Shown in pieces: positions 27,256-61,551 of a DNA stretch of 61,551 bases. Positions within the stretch are counted from its first letter, which is position 1. The number at the start of each line of letters is the position of its first letter. Source of the DNA: Halothiobacillaceae bacterium. Its GTDB lineage: Bacteria > Pseudomonadota > Gammaproteobacteria > Halothiobacillales > Halothiobacillaceae. The position numbers were made by a program, and so were the translations under genes. Under the pieces are notes generated by a model. That model saw only the letters and a list, made by a program, of their open reading frames with translations, ran no database searches and was not told the origin of the DNA. The stretch is from positions 1-61,551 of the forward strand of contig JAQVHL010000008.1 in assembly GCA_028696185.1 (NCBI GenBank), written 5' to 3'.

Positions 27256-28230
27256 TCAGTCGGTTTCGTCCACCTGATCCAGGGCCGCCCAGGCTTTATC
27301 CGCCAGGGGGGACAGGGCAGAGCCTGCCAGCCAGTCGGCTTCACGTTCATGGGCTTCATAGCGCCCGCTTTCGATCAGGCTGTGAACCAGCGCCAGACGA
27401 TGGGCCGCCTGCACTATCGCACCCAGGGACGCGCCGTTGGGTTTGTCCTGAGCGTCCAGTGCCTGTACGACGGCACTGGGAAACTCCCACTCTTGCGCGA
27501 CTTTTCGCGCGATTTTCGGCAGCAGCACATGCCGCGCCTCGAATAATGCGCGGGTTGGCGGAGGGGCCGTCACGGGCAGCGCCTTTGCAGCAACCAGAGC
27601 GCCAGTGTGAAAAGCCAGCCCGCCCAGCCAGGCTTCGAAACGTGCCCCGCCTGTTGCGGTGGCCAGCGCGGCGGCAGCAGCGGAAGTCTTGGCGATCAGT
27701 CGCCAGGACGGGGTGAGCGCCTGGTTTGCGTCTCTACGCATGACTGGACGGAACGCGAGCCGGCTCACCGTCTCGCGCAGACCGTCGGTTCCCAGACGCG
27801 CCACGGCCTGTTCAATGCCTTGCAGCGGTGTGCCACGGTTGTACAGGGCGCTGTTCGCCACCCGCAGGATTTCGGCGATGGCGGCCGGGTCATCCCGGAT
27901 CAGCGCCACGTAATCCGCCGTGCTGCGCGTGGGGTCACGCAGGGCCTGTAACAAGCGCGGCACCAGGGTAGGCAGGCGTGGGATGTGCCGGGCCAGCGTT
28001 TCTTCTTCGGCCAGAGCGCGCAGTTTTTCCACCAGCGGGCGCGCTGCCGTGCTGTCCTGCAAGGTGTCGGCGCCAAGCTGTGCCAGGAAATGGTCCCGTT
28101 CGGGGTCGCGATGCGCCGCCGGGGATTCCATGGGGGGGCGGACGGTTGCGTTGGCCCCATCGGGCCTGGGGCTGTGGGTGGCGACTGTCCGTTCGCGTCC
28201 CAGCAGGCGGTTGATCCAGCTCCCAAACAT
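27256..28230 (-). CDS. HDOD domain protein
   Basis: HDOD proteins are signalling adaptors without phosphodiesterase activity, related to HD-domain proteins and often tied to motility or stress control. Here the domain spans about residues 85-300, with LARHIPRLPTLVPRLLQALRDP, a DDPAAIAEILRVANSALYN motif and LGTDGLRETVSRL. The N-terminus MFGSWINRLLGRE looks like a short amphipathic helix. An open frame continues upstream to 28704, but that part overlaps the promoter region of the next gene and lacks protein character, so I start at 28230. It lies 77 bases upstream of mprF. Confidence 0.85.
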   Translation of the reverse strand: MFGSWINRLLGRERTVATHSPRPDGANATVRPPMESPAAHRDPERDHFLAQLGADTLQDSTAARPLVEKLRALAEEETLARHIPRLPTLVPRLLQALRDPTRSTADYVALIRDDPAAIAEILRVANSALYNRGTPLQGIEQAVARLGTDGLRETVSRLAFRPVMRRDANQALTPSWRLIAKTSAAAAALATATGGARFEAWLGGLAFHTGALVAAKALPVTAPPPTRALFEARHVLLPKIARKVAQEWEFPSAVVQALDAQDKPNGASLGAIVQAAHRLALVHSLIESGRYEAHEREADWLAGSALSPLADKAWAALDQVDETD

Positions 28231-60898: not shown

Positions 60899-61000
60899 TC
60901 CCTGGCACCGAAATCATCTACCCCGAGGGCCAGAGCACCAGCTACCACTACGGGCTGGACGCACGGCCTGCGCAGATTACCGACGCGAACGGTAATCGCC
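60899..61000 (+). pseudogene. Rhs/YD-repeat protein fragment
   Basis: In the + frame the sequence reads IIYPEGQSTSYHYGLDARPAQITDANGNRR, which resembles one YD repeat of Rhs proteins. The frame then runs into short DNA repeats and stops at 61050. There is no start or partner domain, so it is a remnant, probably left by recombination. Confidence 0.5.
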
Positions 61001-61066
61001 GGAATCAATGGGAATCAATGGGAATCAATGGGGAATCTCATAATCAATGACTCTGACCCCATTGAT
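61001..61066. repeat. ATCAATG repeat cluster
   Basis: GGAATCAATG occurs three times in exact tandem at 61001-61030. It is followed by a perfect inverted repeat ATCAATG/CATTGAT at 61043-61049 and 61060-61066 with a 10-base loop. Such elements around GGGGTCAGAGTCATTGATT are, from memory, dispersed in many gammaproteobacteria and may be moved by Y1-type transposases. Confidence 0.65.
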
Positions 61067-61072
61067 CGATGG

Positions 61073-61079
61073 GTTAGGT
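61073..61079 (-). other. Half attC core site downstream of the cassette gene
   Basis: On the minus strand ACCTAAC (RYYYAAC) starts two bases after the stop of the cassette gene, where a cassette's own attC should begin. The rest of the expected attC is absent and is replaced by the ATCAATG inverted repeat six bases on. Confidence 0.5.
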
Positions 61080-61080
61080 T

Positions 61081-61419
61081 TCATTTGGTAACCCCGGTGT
61101 TCACAATCGTATATGACTCGGAGTTGGTAAGCAGACGCCGATAGACGAGAAGTTTGACTTCCTGTCCTGGCGCAACCATGAGGTCTATCGGTGCGTTAAT
61201 TACCACGGTTGTTCCATTGTCCAGCAACACCCACACGTTCTTGGATGGAGCTGGGCCATCTGCGGCAACGAAAGCTGTGCCTTGAACTATGCCGTGAGTT
61301 TCCTCCGCTGGGCCGATTGCCGGATTAAGGGATTGCCCGACAACAAGGGCGAAAACGAACCCAACAGCGAGGTAGGAGATGACCGTGGTGCTTCGGCCTT
61401 GAGTTGGAGTGGTGCCCAT
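61081..61419 (-). CDS. Integron cassette protein, 112 aa, membrane-anchored, unknown function
   Basis: I do not recognise the family. It has a polar N-terminus, one transmembrane helix (about residues 13-30) and a small predicted beta-rich domain (GTAFVAADGP, NVWVLLDNGTTVVINAP, GQEVKLLVYRR), perhaps OB- or SH3-like. Its ATG lies four bases after the GTTAGGT core of an attC site and its stop two bases before a second core, the standard layout of a gene cassette. The AGG within the core may serve as its ribosome binding site. Base composition is less GC-rich than the neighbouring flagellar genes, consistent with acquired DNA. Confidence 0.75.
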   Translation of the reverse strand: MGTTPTQGRSTTVISYLAVGFVFALVVGQSLNPAIGPAEETHGIVQGTAFVAADGPAPSKNVWVLLDNGTTVVINAPIDLMVAPGQEVKLLVYRRLLTNSESYTIVNTGVTK

Positions 61420-61422
61420 AAA

Positions 61423-61488
61423 ACCTAACGCCCAAACTCAGCGGCGTGGCCGCGAAGCGGACACGTCCGCTGGAGTGCCTTGTTGGGC
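61423..61488 (-). other. Integron attC recombination site
   Basis: The 66-bp site is bounded by ACCTAAC (61423-61429) and GTTGGGC (61482-61488), matching RYYYAAC and GTTRRRY on the + strand and, being palindromic, also GCCCAAC and GTTAGGT on the minus strand. Inside, ACTCAGCGG pairs with CCGCT-G-GAGT, leaving a single unpaired base, the extrahelical base that marks attC polarity. The central part folds further. All recognised attC features are present. Confidence 0.85.
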
Positions 61489-61498
61489 CGGCTTGCAT

Positions 61499-61551
61499 TC
61501 ATGAGAAAAGCAGGTCAACCAGAAACGTGGATGAGACTGCTACGCCCATGT
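61499..61551 (-). CDS. End of a second cassette ORF (partial)
   Basis: On the minus strand an open frame enters from the window edge and ends VAVSSTFLVDLLFS before a TGA at 61499-61501, ten bases from the attC core. This is the right place for the 3' end of the preceding cassette gene. Only about 17 codons are visible, so identity cannot be judged. Confidence 0.4.
   Translation of the reverse strand, partial: MGVAVSSTFLVDLLFS

Follow-up and report, generated by a model that had tools for sequence, protein, structure and literature searches.

An integron remnant with a candidate phage-defence cassette in a Halothiobacillaceae bacterium

In Xanthomonas, chromosomal integrons that are inactivated and keep frozen cassettes are well described; their intI has been lost by deletion, frameshift or stop codon (PMC12444791). 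That integron cassettes can carry defence genes is established (Darracq 2025, eads0768; Kieffer 2025, eads0915; Getz 2025; all as cited in PMC12444791 and PMC12409362). The PDC families of PADLOC are phage defence candidates that are still uncharacterised (PMC12482510).

The locus that we describe here sits at the extreme end of the window, by which we mean the whole stretch of DNA analysed (61,551 nucleotides, bases 1-61551 of contig C91 in a 2.92 Mb assembly). No other sampled genome belongs to the same genus as the host. We consider it highly probable that the locus is an inactivated chromosomal integron. One of its two cassettes, cassette A, is a candidate for a membrane-linked, nuclease-type phage-defence module. 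Like the integrons of Xanthomonas, the locus has a chromosomal platform, a decayed integrase and few frozen cassettes. Unlike them, it belongs to another family of bacteria, and its genome keeps an intact integrase on another contig as well as at least three partial platforms. The locus also resembles the CALIN and In0 categories in having an attC without a functional integrase nearby. In contrast to a CALIN, however, the locus retains a genuine attI and an intI stump, and the two attC sites that a CALIN requires would be reached only through an artefact, since the second site is most likely an assembly duplicate. Cassette A shares with the described defence cassettes that it is a compact, first-position and probably Pc-driven module of the defence type. 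It differs from them in that its sequence points to the candidate family PDC-M72 and to a two-gene architecture of membrane protein and nuclease-like protein. Our literature search found no paper that joins integron gene cassettes with Halothiobacillus.

Table 1. Coordinates of the integron remnant and its surroundings, and attC-linked PDC-M72B genes in other genomes. Plain numbers are window positions; the prefix C91 marks positions on the whole contig.
Feature	Position	Strand	Remark
RHS/YD-repeat fragment	60907-60996	+	between fliK and integron remnant; Pfam RHS_repeat
Outward-facing motif ATCAATGGGGTCAGAGTC	61049-61066	-	left edge of integron remnant
ACCTAAC, first core box of cassette B's own attC	61073-61079	-	sequence
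Cassette B gene, 112 aa	61081-61419	-	open reading frame
attC, 66 bp	61423-61488	-	attributed to cassette A; divides cassette A from cassette B
Exact 127-bp repeat	61425-61551 = C91:61652-61778		probable assembly overlap around 100-N scaffold gap
Cassette A, two genes	C91:61726-63059	-	beyond window
PDC-M72B gene, cassette A gene 2, 240 aa	C91:61726-62448	-	3' end at window 61499-61551
Membrane-protein gene, cassette A gene 1	C91:62436-63059	-	glycine-rich
attI core GTTGGGC, Pc-like promoter, palindrome	C91:63075-63121		beyond window, same scaffold
intI stump, 34 codons	C91:63212-63316	+	ends where unrelated sequence begins
PDC-M72B locus, other genome	G208:C1		attC both sides of gene
PDC-M72B locus, other genome	G208:C53		attC both sides of gene
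PDC-M72B locus, other genome	G209:C17		attC just downstream of gene
PDC-M72B locus, other genome	G293:C47		attC 4 bp upstream of gene

The attC site and the scaffold gap

A complete 66-bp attC with both core boxes had been proposed at the right edge of the window from the sequence alone, and covariance models and folding agree with this proposal. The boxes, GCCCAAC and GTTAGGT, are inverted on the minus strand and conform to RYYYAAC/GTTRRRY. As single-stranded DNA the site folds with -23.7 kcal/mol on the plus strand (z -5.4) and -21.9 kcal/mol on the minus strand (z -4.6), and on either strand 0 of 200 shuffles were as stable. Imperfect inner arms with bulged bases are what an attC fold should have. 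The sequence-only reading had seen a single extrahelical base; one clear bulged T is indeed there, but so are a mismatch and a second, shifted bulge.

We count the covariance model, a kind of search that the same reading had suggested as a check, as the decisive test. Two models of our own were built with the window site left out, one (R1) from 7 and one (R2) from 56 attC sites; the training sites came from other genomes of the family, where they were found via their integrases, plus one from contig C44 of the host. With R1 the site was the sole match in the window (25.5 bits), and with R2 it was again the sole match, with exact boundaries (31.3 bits, E 1.3e-5). Over the whole 2.9 Mb genome R2 gave four matches only, namely one on C44, one on C95, the window site and its duplicate. 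Among the training sites in relatives, 55 of 55 lie on the strand that agrees with the integrase orientation, and hence the specificity of the model looks good. The arrays of the relatives yield dozens of attC matches, all on the strand predicted by their intI. Rfam gave no match in the region. RF04300 was considered as a family for the site and is irrelevant, and a match to the site on contig C5 is a 25-bp coincidence within a coding gene. By sequence, fold and covariance model, the site is a genuine attC.

One could argue that a hairpin arisen by chance, or a terminator, has been taken for an attC and that there is no integron at all. The core boxes by themselves would permit this, since the loose core pattern is frequent by chance and uninformative alone, with 11 matches genome-wide against 50 for the reversed control. 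The independent models with their sole window match, and the attI and intI stump, located at a distance of about 1.6 kb and oriented as predicted, have already refuted the idea, which we give next to no chance. They are also the opposite of what the sequence-only reading said would overturn its proposal of an attC, a low model score with no further attC or intI in the adjoining sequence. A second question is whether the genome holds this attC once or twice. Beyond the window the contig continues with 100 N and then with the last 127 bp of the window again, identical, which places a second copy of the attC at C91:61650-61715. There might be two true attC sites, one on each side of the gap, separated by unknown cassettes or by a second copy of cassette A; after all, the site is present twice in the assembly, and the graph breaks exactly at GTTAG, as alternative cassettes after an attC would make it do. 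However, an exact 127-bp repeat with 100 N is the usual trace of a one-k-mer contig overlap (here k=127) with a nominal gap, and we found no other cassette downstream of the site anywhere in the assembly. Two true sites seem improbable to us, and in all likelihood the second attC is an artefact of assembly, the same site counted twice.

If the repeat is such an overlap, the window is directly continued by the sequence after C91:61778. To reach the integrase side one does have to cross the scaffold gap, but the 127-bp overlap supports direct adjacency. That the graph breaks exactly at the attC boundary might possibly reflect variation downstream of the attC among the sequenced cells. The locus also illustrates that overlapping ends in a scaffold can mimic a second attC and thereby lead automatic annotation to a false integron call.

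Integron platforms of the genome

An integrase, if there was one, had been expected to the right of the window, and a search for intI and attI there had been advised. Both are present, with attI and the start of an integrase at C91:63075-63316, but the intI is only a stump of 34 codons and not a functional gene next to attI, so the platform is nonfunctional alone. The attI core at C91:63075-63081 lies upstream of the stump, fits GTTRRRY and aligns with five other copies, and the 22-bp palindrome beside it has -35-like hexamers for both directions. Cassettes A and B lie on the minus strand and the stump on the plus strand, with the attC between, which is the orientation of an integron. When the sequences upstream of intI in four relatives are aligned, they share this GTTRRRY core; most of them also have an inverted repeat immediately ahead of it.

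Besides one locus with an intact integrase, the genome contains three partial platforms. The intact integron integrase (G000:C75:26969-27946, 325 aa) matches TIGR02249 with 488 bits, compared to a cut-off of 265. To the end of contig C75 the attI/intI stretch on C91 is 96% identical, to a second stump on C44 90%, and to a degraded copy on C70 73%. Contig C75 ends at 28046, inside attI within the palindrome, and its cassettes are not assembled with the integrase. The platform on C70 (L014 7843-8420) is more decayed and consists of an attI-like sequence that runs straight into a C-terminal integrase fragment interrupted by an in-frame stop. On C44 (L088 1-1500) we find an intI stump, attI, two small open reading frames, an attC at 334-414 and a third open reading frame; the stump is adjoined by an RHS-like C-terminal fragment, recognised by eye. 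The attC-like match on C95 (L131 126-221, 38 bits) lies directly beside an apparent insertion sequence end, and a sequence similar to this end occurs in C44 near position 100. Sizeable chromosomal integrons do occur in the family of the host, as two other genomes carry large attC arrays (L092 in G018 and L091 in G012, about 20 or more sites each within 17 kb).

The two cassettes and their flanks

The gene of cassette B starts 3 bp past the core of the attC and stops 1 bp short of an ACCTAAC core. The sequence-only reading had this arrangement right, although not the spacings, which it gave as four and two bases. It had also spoken of a textbook cassette. Cassette B is indeed a cassette of an integron, and the neighbouring attC is real, but the attC of cassette B itself is truncated: the remainder beyond the first core box is absent, the covariance models do not match at 61073-61079, and the cassette is not a complete mobile one. 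Judged from what is left of this site, precise excision of cassette B is no longer possible.

The 112-aa protein of cassette B has one predicted N-terminal transmembrane helix, with a hydropathy maximum of 2.05 at residue 13. Its structure model (a helix at 17-26, then a beta-rich domain of five strands) is of low confidence and not usable, with a mean pLDDT of 58, and a fold search returned nothing at E <= 0.001. There was no meaningful match in Pfam, NCBIfam, PADLOC or PDB and no relative in the viral collection; 369 sampled gammaproteobacterial genomes gave one weak relative only (26% identity). For this gene, the earlier description of a typical carrier of undescribed function fits, but the neighbouring cassette matches a candidate defence family.

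The integron remnant looks trapped between rearranged fragments. At its left edge the motif ATCAATGGGGTCAGAGTC faces outward, and so does a near-copy at the right edge, beyond the window (C91:63321-63338, plus strand). The motif occurs at three places in the genome, two of which flank the remnant, and the reversed control at none. On the left, the match of the RHS/YD-repeat fragment (E 0.0015, 19.3 bits) is under the curated cut-off of 22. A fragment at C91:63395-63598 that starts with MARLSRLYLPGCAQHVIQRGNNREACF has no Pfam match; its beginning resembles the start of REP-associated tyrosine transposases. The fliG protein of the window is 74-78% identical to Halothiobacillus proteins, which makes the host a member of the Halothiobacillaceae. 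In the Halothiobacillus loci no M16 peptidase adjoins fliK, and hence they offer no empty site for comparison.

The second open reading frame that had been noticed just past the attC does end there, at 61499 and 10 bp from the site. It is the 3' end of the second gene of cassette A, which overlaps the first. The encoded 240-aa protein matches PADLOC PDC-M72B over residues 34-176 (E 1.9e-29), so that cassette A resembles the candidate system PDC-M72 in its component B. It departs from PDC-M72 in its membrane partner, for which PDC-M72A, the component A, gave no match; this protein has a weak match to PDC-M09A (2.5e-12), over its hydrophobic glycine-rich part only. The same pair is found in a gammaproteobacterium of another family at 73% and 71% identity, the first gene being frameshifted in that assembly. 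On a Sulfitobacter plasmid an overlapping pair adjoins a DUF262 gene, and on a Yoonia plasmid both proteins are fused into a single one of 509 aa. The gene overlap, the recurrence of the pair in another family, the Sulfitobacter pair and the Yoonia fusion all suggest that the two proteins work together. As a single query the 240-aa protein found no relatives in viral and phage collections, while an alignment of distant relatives matched one viral contig. On this IMG/VR contig (L132 3146-5840) a DUF697-like gene and a PDC-M72B gene form an overlapping pair, adjoined by a DUF488-like gene and with no detectable attC.

Searches of Pfam and PDB found no relative of PDC-M72B, and its structure prediction is poor and not usable (pLDDT 48). 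Residues K76-G77, E81, D109 and K125 are invariant or near-invariant, and most of 13 divergent members show KG-x3-E, then D, then Q-x-K-A-T in the alignment. Mrr-like nucleases have the pattern E...D...QxK. From the residues KG-x3-E, D and Q-x-K we infer that the 240-aa protein may be an Mrr-like nuclease. The same residues could serve another fold, in a protein that is not a nuclease, and in line with this, profile searches gave no match to any PD-(D/E)XK family and no structural confirmation of a nuclease fold was obtained. Against it stand the fit of the conserved residues to the Mrr-like pattern and the order of helices and strands in the weak PDC-M72B model, which is compatible with a nuclease; we regard a different fold as the less probable case, albeit one to be taken seriously. 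A further alternative concerns the cassette as a whole: it could encode an addiction pair, of the toxin-antitoxin or another type, with the role of stabilising the array. Integrons often carry toxin-antitoxin cassettes, and two short overlapping genes, one of them for a small glycine-rich membrane protein, would suit such a role. However, neither the Yoonia fusion nor the variety of partners (DUF697-like, zinc-ribbon-like or none) is like a labile antitoxin, and the family matched by the 240-aa protein is a defence candidate. An addiction pair is unlikely in our judgement. Cassette A is a candidate defence module; a phage-defence role, taken alone, might equally well turn out to be right or wrong.

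Our proposal for the whole locus is as follows. Read leftward, it consists of the 34-codon intI stump, attI and its Pc-like promoter, cassette A, the attC, cassette B and the remnant of a further attC. It has lost the integrase and its last attC, and foreign fragments, RHS-like and transposase-like, abut both ends. Cassette A is still bounded by attI and attC, and in principle the intact integrase on C75 could move it in trans. Standing next to attI, cassette A would probably be transcribed from Pc. Its two proteins would act jointly as a membrane-linked, nuclease-type phage-defence module, in which the membrane partner might anchor or gate the nuclease, and phage replication might be stopped by DNA cleavage or membrane damage.

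PDC-M72B and attC sites in other genomes

PDC-M72B is present in 9 of the 369 sampled gammaproteobacterial genomes, at 13 loci including the one on C91. We scanned the neighbourhoods of the 12 other loci with R2. At four of them an attC in the same orientation abuts or encloses the PDC-M72B gene (Table 1); the remaining eight have no attC even at E 10. Both loci in G208 adjoin similar thioredoxin-like genes and may be strain variants or copies of one locus. With this possible duplication, a cautious count is that three of the eight other genomes have an attC-linked PDC-M72B. The G208 loci (L120 and L129) hold decayed intI N-termini, of which about 38 codons are recognisable, small attC arrays and PDC-M72B cassettes. 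Judged from the rarity of attC alone, the association between PDC-M72B and attC seems unlikely to be due to chance. The new element of our study is this recurrent association; the integron itself is ordinary.

Integrons have recently been recognised as stores of phage-defence genes, and this is where cassette A is relevant. If the link between PDC-M72B and attC holds, it provides a concrete two-gene candidate of clonable size, for which a natural fused variant exists. Tentatively, and as a conjecture that may well fail, PDC-M72-type modules, in which a membrane protein accompanies an Mrr-like nuclease and is sometimes fused to it, would be a phage-defence family that integrons repeatedly capture and spread among gammaproteobacteria; here the module would have been retained in the first and most strongly expressed position despite the disabled platform.
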